Shown here: in pieces, positions 41,530-60,873 of the stretch
Layout of the letters: each line of letters begins with the position of its first letter
Numbering within the stretch: the first letter of the stretch is position 1
Source: Halomonas sp. HL-93
Lineage (GTDB): Bacteria; Pseudomonadota; Gammaproteobacteria; Pseudomonadales; Halomonadaceae
NCBI RefSeq assembly: GCF_900086985.1
Contig: NZ_LT593974.1
Coordinates: forward strand, 3,038,001 to 3,102,000
DNA length: 64,000 bases
Reading direction: 5' to 3'
The notes under the pieces: generated by a model
What the model was told of the DNA's origin: nothing
The model's input: the letters and a program-made list of their open reading frames with translations, nothing else
The model's database searches: none
Translations under genes and position numbers: made by a program

Positions 41530-42438
41530 TCACCTCTCACCCAACACCTCACGCAGCCAACCAAGTAACGCTTCGCTGCCTGCGCGTTGAGGTGCACCCT
41601 GCCGAGTGTATAGGGCGATGGCATCATGCTGAGGCAAGCTCTCCGCCACCGGGCGGATCAGCTCACCACTTTCAATCATACGCTGCGTCGTCCGCCGCCA
41701 TCCCAAGGCAATACCGTGACCAGCAACAGCCGCTTGAAGCAGCAGCGGGTAACTGTCGAAAACGGCACCCTCTGCTGATGAGGGTTCAAAGTACCCCATG
41801 GCACGAAACCAGTCATCCCACTCCAGCCAATCCGGCGGTTCAGCGTGGTGGTGCAGCAATCGATGGTTGAGTAACGCATTGAGACTCAGCGGCGGGGAGG
41901 CCCCGTTCAGGTAAGCGGGGCTGCAGACCGGAAAGATCTCGTCCTCGGCGCTAAACACCAATCGATGGCTGCCGCTGGGTCGTCCGTTGGTTTGCAGTGC
42001 AATGTCGAAGTTGCCACTAAATTCGGTAATCGGCCTTGTCGACGTCGCCAGCTGTATCTCAATTTCAGGGTAGCGACGATTAAAGTCAGCCAACTGAGGC
42101 ATCAGCCAATAGAACGCTTCGCATAACTGGCAGAACAATACGACGCGCTTATCGTCGGGGTCGCCACGTAATTCCTGAGCGCCCGTGGCGATACTTTCCA
42201 GCGCCTGGGAGACCGTACGGCCAAACTCACGCCCCTCACGGGTAAGAAACACCCCGCGATTACGGCGCTCGAAAAGCGTCACACCAAGGTCTTCCTCCAG
42301 CGCACGGATCTGTCGGCTGATAGCCGCCTGGGTCAGGTGGAGCTCATCCGCCGCGCGTGAAAAACTCTCAAGCCTGGCCGCTGCCTCGAAGGGGCGCAGC
42401 GTCGCCAGTGGTGGAAGAGACTTGATGAAATTATCCAT
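41530..42438 (-). CDS. LysR-family regulator (GcvA-like)
   Basis: 302 residues. Helix-turn-helix LESFSRAADELHLTQAAISR and IRALEEDLGVTLFERRNRGV are typical of the GcvA branch. The effector domain includes LADFNRRYPEIEIQLATSTR and IFPVCSPAYLNGA. Divergent from the EamA transporter at 42532 with a 93-bp shared region, so it likely controls it. Confidence 0.9.
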   Translation of the reverse strand: MDNFIKSLPPLATLRPFEAAARLESFSRAADELHLTQAAISRQIRALEEDLGVTLFERRNRGVFLTREGREFGRTVSQALESIATGAQELRGDPDDKRVVLFCQLCEAFYWLMPQLADFNRRYPEIEIQLATSTRPITEFSGNFDIALQTNGRPSGSHRLVFSAEDEIFPVCSPAYLNGASPPLSLNALLNHRLLHHHAEPPDWLEWDDWFRAMGYFEPSSAEGAVFDSYPLLLQAAVAGHGIALGWRRTTQRMIESGELIRPVAESLPQHDAIALYTRQGAPQRAGSEALLGWLREVLGER

Positions 42439-42531: not shown

Positions 42532-43452
42532 ATGAAGGCCACCCCTGAACACGAAGATAATATCCTACAGGGCATAAGCCTTATCGTGGGGGCTGTCTTT
42601 CTGCTGGCGTTGACCGACGCCCTGGTTAAGTATCTGAGTGCCAGTATGTCGTTATGGCAACTCTATGTCATCGCCTCAACACTATCGCTACCGATACTAC
42701 TTGGGTTGCTTATTGGTCATTCCGGAGCCCGTCCCAATGTAAAATCGCCACGTTGGGTGGCAATCAGAAGCTTGCTTCTATTGCTGATGTGGATAGCCTA
42801 CTACACAGCTCTACCGCTGATTCCCCTCTCGGTGGCGGCGGTCGCCATTTACACCACGCCGCTGTTTATTGCCGTGCTGGCTGCTTTTGGGGCGGGCGAG
42901 TATCTCTCGCGGTTGGCATGGTTAGGCATCTTCTGCGGTTTTCTGGGTGTGGTGGTGGTATTACGCCCCGGCGACGACACCTTCACCCCTGCCACCCTTC
43001 TACCGATGCTCGCCGCCATCTTTTATGCGCTGGCTATGCTGGTGACACGCCACCACTGCCAAACAGAGCATCCTTTCATACTCACCTTGGGACTAAATCT
43101 AGCCTTTCTTACGGCAGGCAGTGTTTTCAGTGTGCTGGTCGCCATCAACAGCACCGCATCGCTCGCTGAACGCGCGCCCTTCCTGTTTACCGGTTGGCAA
43201 CCGCTTGATGCCACAACGCTTGCGATCATCGGCGCATACGCCCTACTGCTGATTACTGTGAATACCGGTGTCGCCAGGGCTTATCAAATTGCCCCTTCGG
43301 CGTTGATTGGCACCTTTGATTACGCCTACCTCATCTTTGCCAGCCTTTGGGGCTACCTGCTATTCAGTGAAGTGCCCGATGCCATGACTTGGCTGGGTAT
43401 GGGCATGATCTTAATGAGCGGTTTAATGGTGTTGCGCCAACGGCATACCTAA
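42532..43452 (+). CDS. EamA-family (DMT) transporter
   Basis: 306 residues with ten hydrophobic segments in two EamA repeats: GAVFLLALTDALVKYLSASM with AIYTTPLFIAVLAAFGAGEY, and ALIGTFDYAYLIFASLWGYL in the second. It exports metabolites or amino acids; the substrate is unknown. Divergent LysR. A truncated copy of its last 90 codons is at 52578. Confidence 0.88.
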   Translation: MKATPEHEDNILQGISLIVGAVFLLALTDALVKYLSASMSLWQLYVIASTLSLPILLGLLIGHSGARPNVKSPRWVAIRSLLLLLMWIAYYTALPLIPLSVAAVAIYTTPLFIAVLAAFGAGEYLSRLAWLGIFCGFLGVVVVLRPGDDTFTPATLLPMLAAIFYALAMLVTRHHCQTEHPFILTLGLNLAFLTAGSVFSVLVAINSTASLAERAPFLFTGWQPLDATTLAIIGAYALLLITVNTGVARAYQIAPSALIGTFDYAYLIFASLWGYLLFSEVPDAMTWLGMGMILMSGLMVLRQRHT

Positions 43453-52130: not shown

Positions 52131-52535
52131 TTATTGGACTTGTACACGCAACGACGCGCCGCCACCTACGTTGAACGAGTCTTCAATGCGTTCAACATGA
52201 CGAGGCAGTGTGTTGGGGGGAAGGTCGCATCTGTGGAAACACCGAATATCGTCGGCTTCATCGCTAAGGCGAATAGCGCCGCCCGTTCGAGTGCATAGAA
52301 AAGCAAACGCCACGGTTTCCTGCTCGGGCACAGAATAAACACCGACAAGGTAGTCGACTCTCACAACAAGGCCAACTTCTTCCAGAACTTCACGCTGTGC
52401 GGCTTTCCACGGCGCTTCCAGGCGTTCAACTTTTCCGCCAGGTAAATTCCATGCATCAAAATCTGTTCGATGACAAAGCAAAACCCTTGATGCATCGTCC
52501 AGAATGACTGCGAATGCCCCGAGATTATGCATCAT
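52131..52535 (-). CDS. NUDIX hydrolase
   Basis: 134 residues from the ATG at 52535 (GGGAG upstream); the frame opens at 52622. The Nudix box GKVERLEAPWKAAQREVLEE followed by VGL matches G-x5-E-x7-R-E-x2-E-E-x-G with all metal-binding glutamates. It hydrolyses a nucleoside diphosphate linked to X; the substrate is unknown. The gene sits between the intact EamA gene and a relic of the other EamA gene, so it came with a rearrangement. Confidence 0.9.
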   Translation of the reverse strand: MMHNLGAFAVILDDASRVLLCHRTDFDAWNLPGGKVERLEAPWKAAQREVLEEVGLVVRVDYLVGVYSVPEQETVAFAFLCTRTGGAIRLSDEADDIRCFHRCDLPPNTLPRHVERIEDSFNVGGGASLRVQVQ

Positions 52536-52577
52536 AAATCTCCCTAGGTTTTGTACGAAAAGTTGGCTCTTAAGCAA

Positions 52578-52860
52578 TGTCCGTCGAACGCGCGCCTTTC
52601 CTGTTCGCCGGTTGACAACCAAAGCGATATTGATCGTGGGCGCCTACGCCCCACAGCTGATCATTGTGAATACCAGGGTGGCAAGGGCCTATCAAATTGC
52701 CCCTTCGGCGTTGATCGGCATCTTTGATTACGCCTACCTCATCTTTGCCAGCCTTTGGAGCTACCTGCTATTCAGTGAAGTGCCCGATGCCATGGCTTGG
52801 CTGGGTATGGGCATGATTTCAATAGCGGGGGTGATGGTGTTACGGCAACGGCGTATTTAA
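52578..52860 (+). pseudogene. 3' relic of the other EamA transporter gene
   Basis: VERAPFLFAG, an in-frame TGA, then ILIVGAYAPQLIIVNTRVAR, AYQIAPSALIGIFDYAYLIF and LLFSEVPDAMAWLGMGMI match the last 95 codons of the gene at 42532 (ERAPFLFTGWQPLDATTLAI and on). A stop replaces W and a few codons are missing at about 52614. The rest of the gene is absent. Confidence 0.88.
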
Positions 52861-53064: not shown

Positions 53065-53709
53065 ATGCCTGATGAGCCATTAACACCAATCACCTTCATA
53101 TCTACTGCTATTGGTGGCATTGCTGCCGCTTTATTTGCTTGGACTAGAATCCTTTTACACCAAATTCCTGATTGGAAATATAAAAAGCAAAAACATAATT
53201 TAGATATTTTCGAAAAAATATGTTTAGCCTACGATGAATATAAGAAAAACTCCAGCAATGGCTTAACAAAAGCAAAATTAGAGTATTTTACTAACATCTA
53301 CTGCGGATATTACATTCATAGCCGTCTGATAGACTTAGCATTTAAATCCGATAGCACAATAAAAACATTAGAGACTTTAACAAAACTAAAGGGAGAAATA
53401 ATATACGAAGAAGGGAAAATAAAAAGAAGGTTTTGGACTTATTTTCCAGATAAAAAGACTTCAACTAAATGGCGGTGGATTTCGTTTGCTTTTTATGTTT
53501 TAGCAGCAGTAATGTTTTTTGGTTCTTTACCCATTCAAAATATAGGATTAATACCCTTACCGACTGCAATTGTACTCACCTTAGCAAGTTTAGTACCCGC
53601 ATGGTTATGTTACGAAACAATGCAGCAATGCTTGAGACTTCAGAGACTTGATCATATAAAAATGATAATAAAAAAACATAAACCAAGCCTTTTACCAACA
53701 AAGTGTTAA
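53065..53709 (+). CDS. AT-rich unknown membrane protein
   Basis: 214 residues, GGAG at 53052 upstream. One hydrophobic segment at the N-terminus (ITFISTAIGGIAAALFAWTR), then a charged, lysine-rich middle of 110 residues (LDIFEKICLAYDEYKKNSSN), then two hydrophobic segments (WISFAFYVLAAVMFFGSLPI and TAIVLTLASLVPAWLCYETM). Codon use is strongly AT-rich, unlike the GC-rich neighbours to the left, so it marks the start of the transferred island. No family recognised. Membrane-anchored cytoplasmic domains like this occur in defence effectors, but nothing here proves such a role. Confidence 0.65.
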   Translation: MPDEPLTPITFISTAIGGIAAALFAWTRILLHQIPDWKYKKQKHNLDIFEKICLAYDEYKKNSSNGLTKAKLEYFTNIYCGYYIHSRLIDLAFKSDSTIKTLETLTKLKGEIIYEEGKIKRRFWTYFPDKKTSTKWRWISFAFYVLAAVMFFGSLPIQNIGLIPLPTAIVLTLASLVPAWLCYETMQQCLRLQRLDHIKMIIKKHKPSLLPTKC

Positions 53710-54099: not shown

Positions 54100-54549
54100 T
54101 TAATAACCTCTGAAAGAATGAAGCTGACTGCTTAATTCGTTGTTATCTCGAATAAACTTAAGAAGAAACTCTTCCGTTATATACTCTTGCTTCCCGTTTT
54201 TATACTTTGTGGCCAAGATTTGATTATCTTTATCGTCAGACATACTGCTGCCTTCAGGTGCCGTAACCTGAAAGCTATGCATTATTCTATTTCTTGTTTG
54301 TATGATATTACTGAAATTATTGGCAATTTTGGTATTTGATTTTTTTGTGATGGTATCTTTTATAGGTTTGGAAAGCTCACCAGACGTGCAGTCTATCAAA
54401 TTATACCAACTATATACACCTGAGGCATCATTTTTAAGTATATTTTCAATTATAAAACTATTATTAGAATTAAAAACGCAAACAGCACTCCCTAATAGCT
54501 CTCTATATTTTTTAGATGGCAGAGACTGTCGACTGTATGTTTCATACAT
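54100..54549 (-). CDS. Small HEPN-like protein, possible RNase toxin
   Basis: 149 residues, AT-rich. The single strong motif is TRNRIMHSF with R86-N87-x3-H91, the R(N)-x4-H signature of HEPN ribonucleases, following a helical stretch (DTITKKSNTKIANNFSNIIQ). Before it is a predicted helix with LGSAVCVFNSNNSFIIENIL. HEPN domains are the effector in many toxin-antitoxin and abortive-infection systems. No antitoxin (MNT) gene is adjacent, and the protein is small. Could also be a HEPN-like fold without activity. Ribosome site GGGTG upstream is weak. Confidence 0.55.
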   Translation of the reverse strand: MYETYSRQSLPSKKYRELLGSAVCVFNSNNSFIIENILKNDASGVYSWYNLIDCTSGELSKPIKDTITKKSNTKIANNFSNIIQTRNRIMHSFQVTAPEGSSMSDDKDNQILATKYKNGKQEYITEEFLLKFIRDNNELSSQLHSFRGY

Positions 54550-54775: not shown

Positions 54776-54862
54776 TACCCATTCGTAGTGGAGGCCGTCG
54801 CCTACTACTCCAACGAATTTCACCGGCAGGAAGACCGCAAAGGCTTGGCTAGTTTTTCGTAC
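54776..54862 (-). pseudogene. Displaced guaA fragment, left part
   Basis: ACCCATTCGTAGTGGAGGCC followed by GTCGCCTACTACTCC, ATTTCACCGGCAGGAA and TTTTTCGTAC aligns base for base with guaA 61050-61135 (about 80% identical). Together with 57188-57246 it equals one stretch of guaA codons about 421-468; the IS66 element interrupts it. Same orientation as guaA. The remaining 3' end of guaA is not recognisable to its left. 54550-54775 has no gene. Confidence 0.88.
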
Positions 54863-54899
54863 GTAAGCGCTCCACTAACCCCATCTATTCACGCGTCGC

Positions 54900-56495
54900 T
54901 TAGACCGGCAATGTCTCTTTCCACTGCCAGGGCAGCAGCGTGTGGAGCTCATCATCGTCGAGGGCGGGCAGTGTCGCAAAGACGTACTGCAAGTAGTCGT
55001 AAGGCGAGAGGCCATTGGCTTTGGCGGTTTCGATCAGGCTGTAGATCGCCGCGCTGGCGTGAGCACCGCTCGGGGTGTGGCTGAACAGCCAGTTTTTACG
55101 CCCCACCACGAACGGGCGGATAGCGTTCTCTGCCGGATTGTTGTCGAACGGGATCAGGCCATCGTCCAGGAACCGGGTCAGGCGAGGCCACTGGTTATCT
55201 AGATAGTGTAGGGCTTTCCCCAGCGCGCTTTTGGGCAACACCTGGGCCAGTGACTTGTCGAGCCAGGTGCGCAGTTGATCGATCAGTGGGCGGCTCTTCT
55301 GGTCACGCAGCGCGTGACGCGTCTCAGGCTCAAGGGCCTTCGCCTGTTTTTCCACGCCGTACAGCTTACGGATCTGGTTCAGCGCCCAGTCGGCTTTGCC
55401 AGTTTTGCCTTTGGGCTGCACCTTCTGGGCCTCGATGAACTTGCGCCGGGCATGCGCCCAGCAGCCCGCATGGGTGATCCCATTGCGACGCACGATCTCG
55501 GCGTAGCCTTCATAGCCATCGGTGATTAAGCGCCCCGCATAGTCGCCCAGCAGGTCAACGGGCACCCGTCCGGCGCGGCTGGCGGCGTAGTCGAACAGAA
55601 CGACTTGTTGTCCCGGCGGACCACCGCGCTGCACCCACATATACGAGGTGGCACTGGCGGCACGATCCGCTTCTTGATTCACCTGGAGCGTCGTCTCATC
55701 CATGTGGATCAGCGGGGCGTTTAAGAGGTGATGGCGCAACGTGTCGATCAACGGGGTGATCCGTTCTCCCGCCTGCACCATCCAGCGTGCCAGGGTATTG
55801 CGGGGGATCTCGGCGCCATGGCGGGCAAAGATCTGGCTTTGCCGATAAAGCGGTAGCGCGTCCTGGTATTTAGCCGTCGCGATATAGGCGAGCAGCGTGG
55901 CGCTGGCATTACTCTTGGGCAACAGTTTGGCGGGTGCTGGGGCTGTGTTGACGCCCTCTTCGCACGTCGGGCAGGCATATTTGTGTCGCACATGGCGGAT
56001 CACCTCGATCCGCGCGGGCACCACATGCAACTCCTCGCTGACCTCCTCACCGATCACCTTTAGCGCGGTGCCGTCATCGTGGCAGTGGCGAGCATCGTCG
56101 GGCAGTTCATGGACGATCTCGACACGCGGTAGCTCTGGCGGTAGCGCAATACGCCCGCCGCGTGTACGACGCTTAGCAGGCGTGGCAGTGTCGATCGTCG
56201 CGTCATCAGCGGTGGCGTCGCACTCCGGTGCAGCATCGTTGTCTTCCTCGTCAACCGACACTTCCGCTTCATTGATAAGCAGATCTTGCTGGTCGACACG
56301 GTACTTCTCGGTGGAAGGGCCGAACTGACGCTCCAGGGCAAGCCGGAACTGTTCAAATAGCGACTGTTTGGTGGCTTCCCACTGCGCTTCCTTTTTTTCC
56401 ATCAACGCCAATAGCCGCGCATTTTCAGCGTCAGCAGCGGCCAGCTTGCGCTCAAGCTGGGTAACCGTCGTCGAGGAAGAGGCCGTGTTTTTCAT
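54900..56495 (-). CDS. tnpC: IS66 transposase TnpC
   Basis: 531 residues from the ATG at 56495; the frame is open to 56549. N-terminal coiled coil (QLERKLAAADAENARLLALM), LZ-like region, zinc-binding block (VIGEEVSEELHVVPARIEVI, HKYACPTCEEG) and DDE-type catalytic core (PLIHMDETTLQVNQEADRA, GRLITDGYEGYAEIVRRNGI, ending PFDNNPAENAIRPFVVGRKN and WLFSHTPSGAHASAAIYSLI). This is the catalytic protein of the element. Intact. Confidence 0.96.
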   Translation of the reverse strand: MKNTASSSTTVTQLERKLAAADAENARLLALMEKKEAQWEATKQSLFEQFRLALERQFGPSTEKYRVDQQDLLINEAEVSVDEEDNDAAPECDATADDATIDTATPAKRRTRGGRIALPPELPRVEIVHELPDDARHCHDDGTALKVIGEEVSEELHVVPARIEVIRHVRHKYACPTCEEGVNTAPAPAKLLPKSNASATLLAYIATAKYQDALPLYRQSQIFARHGAEIPRNTLARWMVQAGERITPLIDTLRHHLLNAPLIHMDETTLQVNQEADRAASATSYMWVQRGGPPGQQVVLFDYAASRAGRVPVDLLGDYAGRLITDGYEGYAEIVRRNGITHAGCWAHARRKFIEAQKVQPKGKTGKADWALNQIRKLYGVEKQAKALEPETRHALRDQKSRPLIDQLRTWLDKSLAQVLPKSALGKALHYLDNQWPRLTRFLDDGLIPFDNNPAENAIRPFVVGRKNWLFSHTPSGAHASAAIYSLIETAKANGLSPYDYLQYVFATLPALDDDELHTLLPWQWKETLPV

Positions 56496-56541
56496 ACCGC
56501 GTAGTATACCAAAAGCGCCACCAAAATAGGAGGCGATTTTG

Positions 56542-56898
56542 TTAGCCAACTCGCTGAAAATACAGCGCTTTGTGAGGCTTCATGGCCTTCAGGTCGTAGC
56601 CATCCAGCAGCCAGTTAAGCTCTTGGCCGGTTAACGTCACGGTCTCGCCATTAAGGTGCGTTGGCCATTTAAACCGCTCACGCTCCAAGCGCTTGTACCA
56701 CACCACAAAACCGTTACGTTCCCAGAACAGCAGTTTCACTTTATCCCGCTGGCGATTACCGAACACGAACAGCGCTTGATCGAACGGGTTCAAGGCCATG
56801 GCTTCCTGAACCAGCAGTGCCAAGCCATCGATTTGCTTACGCATATCCACGGGCTCTCGGCACAGGTAAACCTTTAGGTCAGTGCCTGGACGAATCAT
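56542..56898 (-). CDS. tnpB: IS66 accessory protein TnpB
   Basis: 118 residues. Reads GTDLKVYLCREPVDMRKQID, LFVFGNRQRDKVKLLFWERN, GFVVWYKRLERERFKWP: the standard IS66 Orf2 sequence at full length. Needed for IS66 transposition, role not settled. Its start overlaps the tnpA stop. Confidence 0.96.
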   Translation of the reverse strand: MIRPGTDLKVYLCREPVDMRKQIDGLALLVQEAMALNPFDQALFVFGNRQRDKVKLLFWERNGFVVWYKRLERERFKWPTHLNGETVTLTGQELNWLLDGYDLKAMKPHKALYFQRVG

Positions 56899-57107
56899 GC
56901 GACCACCTCCACCGCGACAAACCGGGCGGGACGACAACGCGGTGGCACGGGGAAGCCTTGCACGATTAACCGATTTTCCCACGCCATCAGGTCGGCTAAC
57001 GTCACTGCCTGTGCGTTGGCATATTCACTTAACGGCATCTGCAACGCGGCAGCATAAGACAGATGCCCTAACCAAAACGCTTGAGTGGGATTGAGTTCGC
57101 GGCTCAT
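56895..57107 (-). CDS. tnpA: IS66 accessory protein TnpA
   Basis: 70 residues from the ATG at 57107. Short IS66 first-ORF protein (ELNPTQAFWLGHLSYAAALQ, YANAQAVTLADLMAWENRLI), normally a helix-turn-helix DNA-binding protein; this one is at the short end of the range. Overlaps tnpB by 4 bases (ATGA). Confidence 0.85.
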   Translation of the reverse strand: MSRELNPTQAFWLGHLSYAAALQMPLSEYANAQAVTLADLMAWENRLIVQGFPVPPRCRPARFVAVEVVA

Positions 57108-57187
57108 GATGATCTCCAAAGCAAAAGAGACCATCAGTGTGATCAGACAACGTTAATGTGGGTAGATGGGGTTTATGGCGCGCTTAC

Positions 57188-57246
57188 TTTCGTACCAGCC
57201 GGAGGCGCGTAGTTCTTCGATGCAGATGGCGTCACGGAGGATGTCT
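57188..57246 (-). pseudogene. Displaced guaA fragment, right part
   Basis: TTTCGTACCAGCCGGAGGCG followed by CGTAGTTCTTCGATG and GGAGGATGTC aligns with guaA 61128-61190, with one 6-base deletion. It continues the left part at 54776-54862 when the IS66 element is removed. It ends exactly where the palindrome begins. Confidence 0.9.
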
Positions 57247-57304
57247 GAAGTGACCCCCTCCAGAGCTGCACAGGCTATAGTGCAGCTCTGGAGGGGGTCA
57301 CTTC
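57247..57304. repeat. 58-bp palindrome at the island edge
   Basis: Perfect 25-base arms: GAAGTGACCCCCTCCAGAGC followed by TGCAC (57247-57271) and the reverse complement at 57280-57304, with an 8-base loop AGGCTATA. It sits between the guaA scar and the end of the three-gene ATPase operon. It could be two abutted insertion-sequence ends (the TGACCCC start is like several IS ends), a MITE, or a strong bidirectional terminator; a poly-A after the right arm but no T run on either side argues against a plain terminator. Confidence 0.9.
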
Positions 57305-57347
57305 AAAAATAGGCTAATTAAAATTTACACAAGGATGGTATAATCTA

Positions 57348-58169
57348 CTATAGAGCACAGAACTTATAGCCAGTATCTTTATATGGTGGCTCACCAAATA
57401 CTCTTTTGATTCTATTGATAAACACATTATTCCCAGGCGTGCCAATAGGGTATCCATGATAGCGACCATCCACATGCTGTGGAAACTCATACCATTGCTC
57501 ATTAGTAAAGAAGTATACATATTTACTATGCAAAACTTGAAACCCATTATTCAAACAGTCTTGAGCTACAGAATCACTCAGATCCATTTTTGAATGTAGT
57601 TTTCCTGCTATCACTTTATCTTTTTTAATTTTATGTTTAGGGCTAGACTCATATCTTCGGGTATAATTTTCACAACAGGCATCAGTGATAATATTTATAA
57701 CCTTAACTACTCTCAGGCCAGGAACTTCAATTTCAAAATATGAAGAATTATATGCTCCAGAATTTTCTGCCGATATTAAAGCATGAATAGATTCTCTTTC
57801 TTTTGACAAATAATAATGTAGAGAACTACCGTCAACGGGTTCTTTACAAACACTTTGAATTTCCTTTACATCTGCATTCAACTCAGAATTGTCTATAAAT
57901 GGGCCTTGAACAACATTCGTTAACAAGACCGTTAACAAAGTCTGATCTTCTGGTTTTTTTGACTTAAGGAGTTCTATTTTAAATTGATCAATTGTCTTGT
58001 CGCCGATAAAAGGTCTACTTGCAAGTAGTCTAGTCCTTCGAACCGGTTCGTTTCCGGTTAGTTTTTTAGAGGCTAAGGAAGCAAACGCTATTTTTTTTAC
58101 ACAATATTTTGCCTCATCTAATGATTTAAATTGACCTTTAAAAGACAAGTCGTTAATAGATATTTCCAT
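57348..58169 (-). CDS. Unknown third protein of the DUF262/AAA operon
   Basis: 273 residues, no family recognised. Starts MEISINDLSFKGQFKSLDEA; middle has a cysteine pair in NIITDACCENYTRRYESSPK and a lysine-rich stretch; the C-terminal third has aromatic-rich blocks (YVYFFTNEQWYEFPQHVDGR, YHGYPIGTPGNNVFINRIKR). The one-base overlap with the AAA ATPase gene shows translational coupling and joint function. In comparable ATPase operons the last gene is often the effector, which would make this the candidate toxin or nuclease; no nuclease motif is visible by eye. AT-rich. Confidence 0.7.
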   Translation of the reverse strand: MEISINDLSFKGQFKSLDEAKYCVKKIAFASLASKKLTGNEPVRRTRLLASRPFIGDKTIDQFKIELLKSKKPEDQTLLTVLLTNVVQGPFIDNSELNADVKEIQSVCKEPVDGSSLHYYLSKERESIHALISAENSGAYNSSYFEIEVPGLRVVKVINIITDACCENYTRRYESSPKHKIKKDKVIAGKLHSKMDLSDSVAQDCLNNGFQVLHSKYVYFFTNEQWYEFPQHVDGRYHGYPIGTPGNNVFINRIKRVFGEPPYKDTGYKFCAL

Positions 58170-59257
58170 TAGAACAGCCTCATCAAATCTTTATTAATTT
58201 GATCAAAGAACCCATCATCTAAAGCAGTGAGATTTCCATCTGAATCAATATGAATTTCTTTTACACTTCTTTTTCCTGAGTTCTCTGTAACGGAATAAAC
58301 AATATTATCTCTTTCAGAAAAAATATTGTCTTTCGCAAACACCCTTACACCGTTAATAATATGATCGCTGTGAGTCTCTATAATAACCTGAACACCAGTC
58401 TTTGACAGTTCACATAAAATTTTAATCAAATCAGATTGTGCTCTAGGATGTAAATGAACTTCAGGATTCTCTATTATCAAAGTGCCTCCTGGTTTAATTA
58501 ATGAAGCACTGATAATAATGGGAAGAACATAACTCACACCAAAACCAATATTTATTGGTCTGATACTTTCGGAGCCAGAGGTATACATATTGTATACTCT
58601 ATCAATCTCATCCGCCTCTATAACTTTCATTGAAAAACCGGGGCATACTCGCCGCATTGCCTCTCTAACTAGTGCATCTGTAAATATTACTTCATCTATC
58701 TTTTTTTCAGGGTTAATTAAATGAGAACATATATTTCTAGCAAACTTTTGATTATTGGCTGGTTTATCTTGATTATCATGGTAAGAGGATAAAGAAAATT
58801 GACCAAATATACCAATTTCGAGTCTATCTTTCTTAGGCCCCAACTCAAAACTAGATCTTGGCCCAAATCTTTCTGCGCACAAATAAACAAAATCATTTAA
58901 AAATAAATTTTCAATATCTGAAAGACCAGTCACACTATCAGATTGCAGTAAAAACTCTTTATCATCTAACTGTTTTGCAAAGAGTTTAATTTTGAACTCA
59001 TTGATTTCAACTTTTATTTCATTATCAACTGGGTTATGGGTCAACAAATCTTTTATTTTCCCAAAACTGAACAACTCACCATCTAGCCTAAAAACACCTT
59101 CAGAAATATGTTCTAAGTTTTGCTTTATACTCAGTATCGATTGTATCGCTGTTGATTTACCTGCGGAGTTAGAACCGCAGAATATAGTCAAAGGCGACAA
59201 TTGAAAAGATTGCTCACTAAAGCATTTAAAATTTTTAACATGTAATTTTTTAATCAT
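58169..59257 (-). CDS. AAA ATPase, DUF3696/OLD-like
   Basis: 362 residues. Walker A GSNSAGKST at residues 28-36, just after the ABC-type start KLHVKNFKCFSEQSFQLSPL; Walker B with catalytic glutamate in GGTLIIENPEVHLHP (257-271) and switch histidine in ETHSDH (294-299). The C-terminus (VYSVTENSGKRSVKEIHIDS, then GFFDQI) matches DUF3696. This is an SMC/OLD-like ATPase without a TOPRIM nuclease. Such ATPases gate effectors in anti-phage systems. Overlaps its upstream gene by 8 bases and its downstream gene by 1. Confidence 0.9.
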   Translation of the reverse strand: MIKKLHVKNFKCFSEQSFQLSPLTIFCGSNSAGKSTAIQSILSIKQNLEHISEGVFRLDGELFSFGKIKDLLTHNPVDNEIKVEINEFKIKLFAKQLDDKEFLLQSDSVTGLSDIENLFLNDFVYLCAERFGPRSSFELGPKKDRLEIGIFGQFSLSSYHDNQDKPANNQKFARNICSHLINPEKKIDEVIFTDALVREAMRRVCPGFSMKVIEADEIDRVYNMYTSGSESIRPINIGFGVSYVLPIIISASLIKPGGTLIIENPEVHLHPRAQSDLIKILCELSKTGVQVIIETHSDHIINGVRVFAKDNIFSERDNIVYSVTENSGKRSVKEIHIDSDGNLTALDDGFFDQINKDLMRLF

Positions 59258-60287
59258 TTCCTAACCGCTCCATTAAACTGCCAATTGTTGTTGACTCATT
59301 TACTCTTAAAGAAACATTAACGTTCAGAAATGAATTGCACACAAGATCTAAAAGACTATGTTTATATTTTTCATATCTATAGCTCTTAGACAAGTTCTTA
59401 CCTATGGTATCAACATCAACAGAATAAACATTAAAAACATCATTCACTATTTCTTTTAATAAACTAATCTCTTCATTCAATCTGTAATCATCAAACTCCA
59501 GCATGAACATTAGTTTATTTATAGCAATTTCAAAACTATCTTCTAGTTTAATGTCAATATTTTCATAGCTTGGGTAACTGGATATATGGCTGCGAGAATA
59601 TGAATAACTTTCCAGACTCATATTATAATCAATCACTTTTTTTTGCCGAACCATATATATTATTAACAAACAAAAAAGAACCTCAGCCTGAAGTTTCAAA
59701 TAATTACTAAACGAGTGCCTTTTGTTTGAATTTCTATTTGATTTAAATCTATCAAAGACGCTTCCAACATATTTATCTAAATCGTTTGAAGCTCGCTTAA
59801 AAATAATATTTCTTGCTAATTGCGCGGCGTTACTACCATACTCATCTCTATTAATGCTTTCAACAAACAAACACTTCAACATTGGGTCTGAATCATATTG
59901 AATGACACTAAAACCTATTTCCATTTGCATAAAATGCTTTTGCTCAGCATAATAAACTTCCGAAAAACGCAAACCTTCAAGATGTTTCAAAATCCTCATT
60001 CCACTCAGACGCAAGCGATCATTTCTAAAAGCCAGTATATTAGATAATACCTCGAACCCGGATAATAACTGAGTTTTACCCAGAGCATCTTGCTCAGCCC
60101 AAATCATTTCTATAGGCAAGCCTAAGATTAAAGATTCTACAATTTTAGATTTCTTGATTCGGGACAATTGATGAGAAGATTCAATATATGGTTTAGGGTT
60201 TAGCCGACCTATCTCCACCATATGAATAAGGTAGTCTACAGACACCAAGCGTGTTTCTTGCTGTATACGAGAAGAACTATATCTCAT
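59250..60287 (-). CDS. DUF262-like protein lacking the DGQQR motif
   Basis: 345 residues from the ATG at 60287; a GTG at 60332 is also in frame. The N-terminal 120 residues follow the DUF262 (GmrSD N-domain, ParB-like) pattern: RLVSVDYLIHMVEIGRLNPK, IVESLILGLPIEMIWAEQ, then LLSGFEVLSNILAF where the family has a DGQQR-L-x2-L block. The Q-R-x3-W block is also replaced (IESSHQL). So the NTP-linked ParB-like site is degenerate. The C-terminal half is helical and has no recognised domain. First gene of the operon; AT-rich. Confidence 0.7.
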   Translation of the reverse strand: MRYSSSRIQQETRLVSVDYLIHMVEIGRLNPKPYIESSHQLSRIKKSKIVESLILGLPIEMIWAEQDALGKTQLLSGFEVLSNILAFRNDRLRLSGMRILKHLEGLRFSEVYYAEQKHFMQMEIGFSVIQYDSDPMLKCLFVESINRDEYGSNAAQLARNIIFKRASNDLDKYVGSVFDRFKSNRNSNKRHSFSNYLKLQAEVLFCLLIIYMVRQKKVIDYNMSLESYSYSRSHISSYPSYENIDIKLEDSFEIAINKLMFMLEFDDYRLNEEISLLKEIVNDVFNVYSVDVDTIGKNLSKSYRYEKYKHSLLDLVCNSFLNVNVSLRVNESTTIGSLMERLGND

Positions 60288-60822
60288 CACTAGGCTCTTT
60301 TTTGTCTTAGTTGACAGAAAATTAAACACCAAAAATAGCTCAATAGAAGATGCAGTAAATTATGCCCTAAGACGCATGGAATTAAGCTAAATAATTTTCA
60401 TTATTTTGCTAATGTGGGCCGATGCTCATTTAGATTGCACACCTGCCTGTTGATTTTATTCGTTAGAGGCTCTACCTTTTCATTTTTCATCTAATTTATT
60501 TCCTGGCGTAAGGCATTTAACACCGCTCGGAAGCTAAGCAAACAGAATGTAAGAAAACCGCGCTCACCTATTAAAGTTTTTTAAAGCACGTTCAGAACTT
60601 CTACATTATGTAATCGTAATAGTTCTATATGTGTTAGACAGGCCGCTGCTAACAAGCTAAAGAACTAGTCATCTCACTATTAAGTATACAACATACACCT
60701 ATAATCTCGGTGATCTCTTTGGATAATCATATCACTGCCTCTCAGTATGTGACTAGCGAGCACTGCATTCCTAGTCCTTAATGGGATAATTTCTGAGCTA
60801 ATTGATTTTTTCAGTAAGGTTC
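60288..60822. other. AT-rich gene-free stretch between the island operon and guaA
   Basis: No ORF or RNA gene can be supported. The promoter of the three-gene operon must lie within, but no clear -35/-10 pair stands out. Confidence 0.5.
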
Positions 60823-60849
60823 AAAACCCGCCTTTTCCAGCGGGTTTTT
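60823..60849. terminator. Terminator after guaA, bidirectional
   Basis: AAACCCGC (60824-60831) and GCGGGTTT (60840-60847) form a stem with an 8-base loop; a T run follows on the plus strand and a shorter one on the minus strand. It ends the guaBA operon and insulates the island operon. Confidence 0.8.
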
Positions 60850-60873
60850 GCAAACGTCACTTACGATTATCCC

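Follow-up and report, generated by a model that had tools for sequence, protein, structure and literature searches.

A Menshen operon in Halomonas sp. HL-93 whose NsnA protein lacks the DGxQR nucleotide loop

The three-gene operon beside guaA

A 64,000 nucleotide (nt) stretch of the Halomonas sp. HL-93 genome (assembly GCF_900086985.1, contig NZ_LT593974.1; positions 3,038,001 to 3,102,000), here called the window, includes a three-gene operon that had been singled out in an original prediction made from the sequence. The three AT-rich genes, their overlaps and motifs, and their position beside guaA were all as first described. The genes, named here after the Menshen system, are:

59250–60287, minus strand: nsnA, encoding a 345 amino acid (aa) DUF262 (ParB/Srx-fold) protein, the presumed sensor
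58169–59257, minus strand: nsnB, encoding a 362 aa OLD/DUF3696-type AAA ATPase (PADLOC and Pfam)
57348–58169, minus strand: nsnC, encoding a 273 aa two-domain protein, the presumed effector (PADLOC)

The nsnA and nsnB genes overlap by 8 bases and nsnB and nsnC by 1 base, all three frames are intact, and the GC content of the operon is 32–34% compared with 54.5% for the window. Each protein matched the corresponding PADLOC Menshen model (NsnA, PDLC03877, 99 bits, residues 3–326; NsnB, PDLC03878, 329 bits, full length; NsnC, PDLC03883, 457 bits, residues 1–272), and the co-directional order nsnA-nsnB-nsnC is the standard one. Judged by sequence, the operon is a Menshen system, a type already described. 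This bears out the suggestion of a defence operon, possibly of a divergent Menshen type, whereas the other option then offered, that of a new type built around an unknown third protein, falls away as the third protein is NsnC. By analogy, the presumed function of the operon would be protection against phage. Profile searches of the PADLOC/Pfam type found no housekeeping or metabolic family among the matches of the three proteins, save for weak, general hits of the ATPase on other ATP-binding families, which scored well under their cut-offs.

Loss of the nucleotide loop in NsnA

The most interesting feature of the operon, missed in the original prediction, lies in NsnA:

60048–60062, minus strand: NsnA residues 76–80, SGFEV, replacing the DGxQR nucleotide loop (alignment with relatives)

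DUF262 proteins turn up in several defence systems. In BrxU, binding and hydrolysis of nucleoside triphosphate (NTP) must come before action, and the hydrolysis mutant Q101A loses defence. The DGxQR loop was present in 116 of the 120 assessable upstream proteins, and was absent not only from NsnA of the window but also from NsnA of loci L156, L076 and L158. The D, Q and R are all replaced in the window, and the (I/V)DGxQR motif of active GmrS-type proteins is missing. The family-wide NsnA positions E51, P58, G77, N146, Q156 and R159 are retained, the window also keeps ES within its (R)LIES segment, and the L156 and L076 operons are intact although their NsnA is without the loop. Among the relatives the loop forms a graded series, DGLQR, DGTQR, DGSHI and SGFEV.

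The motif count rests on a regular expression that could match at any place in the protein, with near-identical copies kept. The 120 proteins are those left from 124 after removal of L093, L105 and L109, which have no DUF262 match, and L104, which ends before the motif. The stretches for L078, L148, L152, L173 and L177 show no upstream open reading frame (ORF), and L078 and L177 are in the NsnB tree yet were excluded from the motif count on it. In this tree, built from 50 sequences chosen from 129 (the window, 16 and 112), all of the loop-less NsnA proteins (window, L156, L076 and L158) fall within one NsnB clade, and parsimony requires two changes for the loss. Going by these alignments, NsnA of the window clade has lost the residues by which related proteins hydrolyse nucleotides. 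A literature search covering titles and abstract openings, with most subscription papers beyond reach, found no account of loop loss in NsnA.

No Pfam family matched NsnA at E <= 1, and at the same threshold no DUF1524 HNH domain was found in NsnA, NsnB or NsnC. Thus, while NsnA shares the DUF262 fold with GmrSD, BrxU and SspE, the window differs from these in having neither this domain nor DGQQR, and type IV restriction (GmrSD/BrxU) was ruled out because the DUF1524 HNH domain is missing.

NsnB and NsnC

59150–59176, minus strand: NsnB Walker A motif, GSNSAGKST, including K34 (sequence)
57684–58169, minus strand: NsnC residues 1–162, PIN-like N-terminal part, probably non-catalytic
57381–57662, minus strand: NsnC residues 170–263, putative RNase domain of BECR-like type, in which K178, H179 and H238 are invariant

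K34 is invariant in all nine aligned NsnB sequences, and Pfam families AAA_15, AAA_21 and DUF3696 matched NsnB. The protein also resembles AriA of the PARIS system (AriA-AriB), matching PADLOC model PDLC02979 at 102.7 bits and AriA chains at E 5e-6. The window differs from PARIS in its additional DUF262 protein and in having no AriB match. PARIS membership was rejected, as the AriB TOPRIM effector is lacking and the ten PADLOC matches of the third protein were all to NsnC. A caged-toxin logic, by analogy, may be common to PARIS and Menshen. Septu membership was also ruled out, a partner or domain not being found with PADLOC and Pfam.

K178, H179 and H238 are present in all 13 aligned NsnC proteins and are the putative catalytic residues, and BECR clades with two histidines have been described (PMC3482391). 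In residues 1–165 of NsnC, D or E occurs in at least 9 of the 13 proteins only at columns 7 and 19, so the catalytic acids of PIN domains are not in place. NsnC looks like an RNA-cutting toxin, and its BECR and PIN-like similarity points to toxins of toxin–antitoxin (TA) and contact-dependent inhibition (CDI) systems. Matches of NsnC to DUF6119 and TIGR04141 were sub-threshold, a PDB sequence search with the NsnC alignment was empty, and no PDB entry or viral model reached E <= 0.001 when the NsnC model was searched with Foldseek.

Profiles of the two parts of NsnC were built from 13 proteins, themselves among the 126 third proteins searched. The N-terminal profile matched 51 of these (38 beyond the 13 profile-building proteins), the C-terminal profile 15 (2 beyond the 13), and both profiles matched 14. 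The C-terminal NsnC type requires five changes on the NsnB tree. A commoner 'type 1' C-terminus was found in 62 of the 126 by a loose regular expression, and no homology between the two C-termini is claimed because profile comparison with the window-type domain gave a probability of 0.2%. Domain polymorphism of Menshen is reportedly the subject, by its title, of a study by Li et al. in 2025, so effector or domain swapping in NsnC has probably been published already. Two further third proteins, in L039 (HDRYIIVD) and L042 (HDRYLLIE), carry an HDRY motif of possibly PLD-like kind, and their form of NsnB is on a separate long branch.

The ptuXYZ system (Gerdes 2025, PMC11980606) is alike in having a DUF262 protein, a PtuA-like ATPase and a third protein with PIN-like and BECR parts, and differs in that PtuX is there called a putative ParB/Srx nuclease. 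It is most likely that ptuXYZ and Menshen are one system under two names, likened here by description. The word Menshen is absent from the main text of PMC11980606.

Distribution of related operons

NsnC was found in one of 275 family genomes, that of the window, and absence from the other 274 disposes of the concern that the operon might be present in all relatives. Among 369 class genomes, PDLC03883 again matched only that of the window. NsnA was found in 28 of the 369 at E <= 1e-15, part of these not being Menshen. NsnA from six three-gene genome loci (L045–L050) scored 351–465 bits on the PADLOC model that gave 99 bits for NsnA of the window, which, with the absent DGxQR, sets the latter apart within Menshen.

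The plasmid loci around NsnB relatives have a DUF262 gene, a DUF3696 ATPase gene and a third gene in the window order in 9 of 11 cases. For the remaining two, the L042 record stops after nsnB and L044 (Nostoc) has an NsnB-like ATPase with no annotated DUF262 neighbour. An upstream ORF was found in 107 of 112 contig loci of NsnB relatives, with an NsnA (DUF262) match in 104 of the 107, and 101 of the 112 have both an upstream DUF262 match and a downstream ORF, where ORFs were picked mechanically as the longest on the plus strand inside a set distance. Relatives occur on plasmids and viral contigs. Three close relatives of the operon, in viral contigs (L157, L158 and L159), are flanked by P2-type gpA on one side and the portal/terminase genes on the other, a position described as a defence hotspot of P2-like phages (PMC9122126).

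NsnC peptide patterns revealed no relative in genome contigs (31 stretches, none confirmed) or viral contigs, NsnA patterns gave four stretches in viral contigs, none confirmed, and tblastn of NsnC against plasmids and phages found nothing at E <= 1e-3. The NsnA model also picked out seven loci (L052, L055, L056, L057, L058, L060 and L061) in which the DUF262 protein is beside a HEPN-like protein of ~210–250 aa. Six of the seven HEPN matches (PF18737/PF18735) exceed the Pfam cut-off, no NsnB match is beside DUF262 in these seven loci, and PADLOC on five of the HEPN proteins gave none at E <= 0.001.

Genetic context

60288–60873, no strand: AT-rich spacer (37% GC) separating nsnA from guaA, where the promoter presumably lies
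54777–57248, minus strand: decayed guaA duplicate (nt ~1333–1457), split by IS66, the distal border of the Menshen segment

The operon is located between guaA and a decayed duplicate of the 3' part of guaA. Promoter-like matches in the spacer were at shuffle level (17 versus 14.8, standard deviation 3.6, in shuffles), as was the terminator scan. The insertion sequence IS66 (54863–57187) lies within the duplicate and is flanked by an 8 bp target duplication, TTTCGTAC. A palindrome at the border of nsnC and the guaA remnant (57241–57310; 31 nt inverted repeat, 94% complementary, 8 nt loop) may represent a terminator or mark the end of an element.

Further guaA fragments were found ~30 kb (genome G210) and ~16 kb (genome G207) downstream of guaA. 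Of 41 genomes of the genus, at least 3, including that of the window, carry such fragments, which suggests an integration hotspot, and the guaA 3' end is a known integration site of GIsul2 (PMC9376610). The core site of GIsul2, GAGTGGGA, occurs at the end of guaA (60878). Its other copies in the window are at 57083, within IS66, and at 41816, so no convincing second attachment site was found. There is no integrase between guaA and the remnant, as the only long ORFs there are the three nsn genes. NsnA aside, the locus is an ordinary, sporadic Menshen operon, apparently acquired horizontally.

Beyond the segment are two AT-rich ORFs (53065–53706 and 54100–54549), one weakly SLATT-like (PF18181, sub-threshold) and one weakly HEPN-like (PADLOC CARF_HEPN, 17 bits), which are perhaps remnants of a further defence locus. 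The C-terminus encoded at 52504–52860 closely resembles, by eye, that of an EamA-like transporter (42532–43452), and is perhaps from a truncated second copy ~10 kb away.

Interpretation of the loop loss

If NsnA hydrolysed NTP by substitute residues, the mechanism would be that of other Menshen members. The unchanged genes and order, and the retained family-wide positions including ES, agree with this, but the D, Q and R are all gone from a loop that, as DGQQR, is conserved in nearly 100% of GmrS family sequences (PMC4619093), and such an explanation is unlikely. More doubtful is an addiction role, in which a TA-type module of a mobile element serves no immunity and NsnB/NsnA silence the NsnC toxin. 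The toxin-like similarity of NsnC and the plasmid and viral contig locations of relatives fit this, but three relatives are in the P2 defence hotspot and Menshen is listed among systems tested for phage resistance (PMC10952713).

The least probable explanation is decay, leaving a non-functional operon in an old island with NsnA becoming a pseudogene. In its favour, the adjoining guaA duplicate has decayed, with IS66 interrupting it, and NsnA diverges faster than NsnB (41% versus 65% identity to L156). However, the three frames and overlaps are intact, the loss is common to the intact L156 and L076 operons, and for nsnA of the window and L156 the Nei–Gojobori (NG86) dN is 0.53 against a dS of 2.1, the latter close to saturation.

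The preferred interpretation, a Menshen operon of a clade in which a non-hydrolysing DUF262 NsnA is a binding sensor, NsnB the sole NTP-driven switch and NsnC an RNase effector, is considered reasonably probable. Membership, gene order, loop loss, the NsnB Walker A motif and NsnC K178/H179/H238 are established by sequence, and from them we infer the mechanism. NsnA would detect an infection cue, either nucleic acid or a phage product, through binding and without NTP hydrolysis. NsnB, an OLD-like ATPase, would be the only NTP-powered gate and would retain or free NsnC, the mechanism of AriA being the model for this step. Freed NsnC would then cleave RNA (tRNA or mRNA) via a metal-independent two-histidine BECR site, and this cleavage would halt the infected cell, with an abortive outcome.

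The chances are evenly balanced that this Menshen clade dropped the hydrolysis of NTP in its DUF262 sensor, probably on two occasions, leaving NsnA a pure binding sensor, NsnB alone to energise its signal and a two-histidine BECR RNase to pay out. As a natural clade keeps the fold, operon and partners without the hydrolysis loop, the need for hydrolysis in Menshen sensing is directly testable, and the relatives with DGLQR, DGTQR, DGSHI and SGFEV provide a natural comparison series. If the sensor has indeed dropped hydrolysis, sensing would be uncoupled from it in a fold family that also includes BrxU, whose hydrolysis mutant Q101A loses defence.
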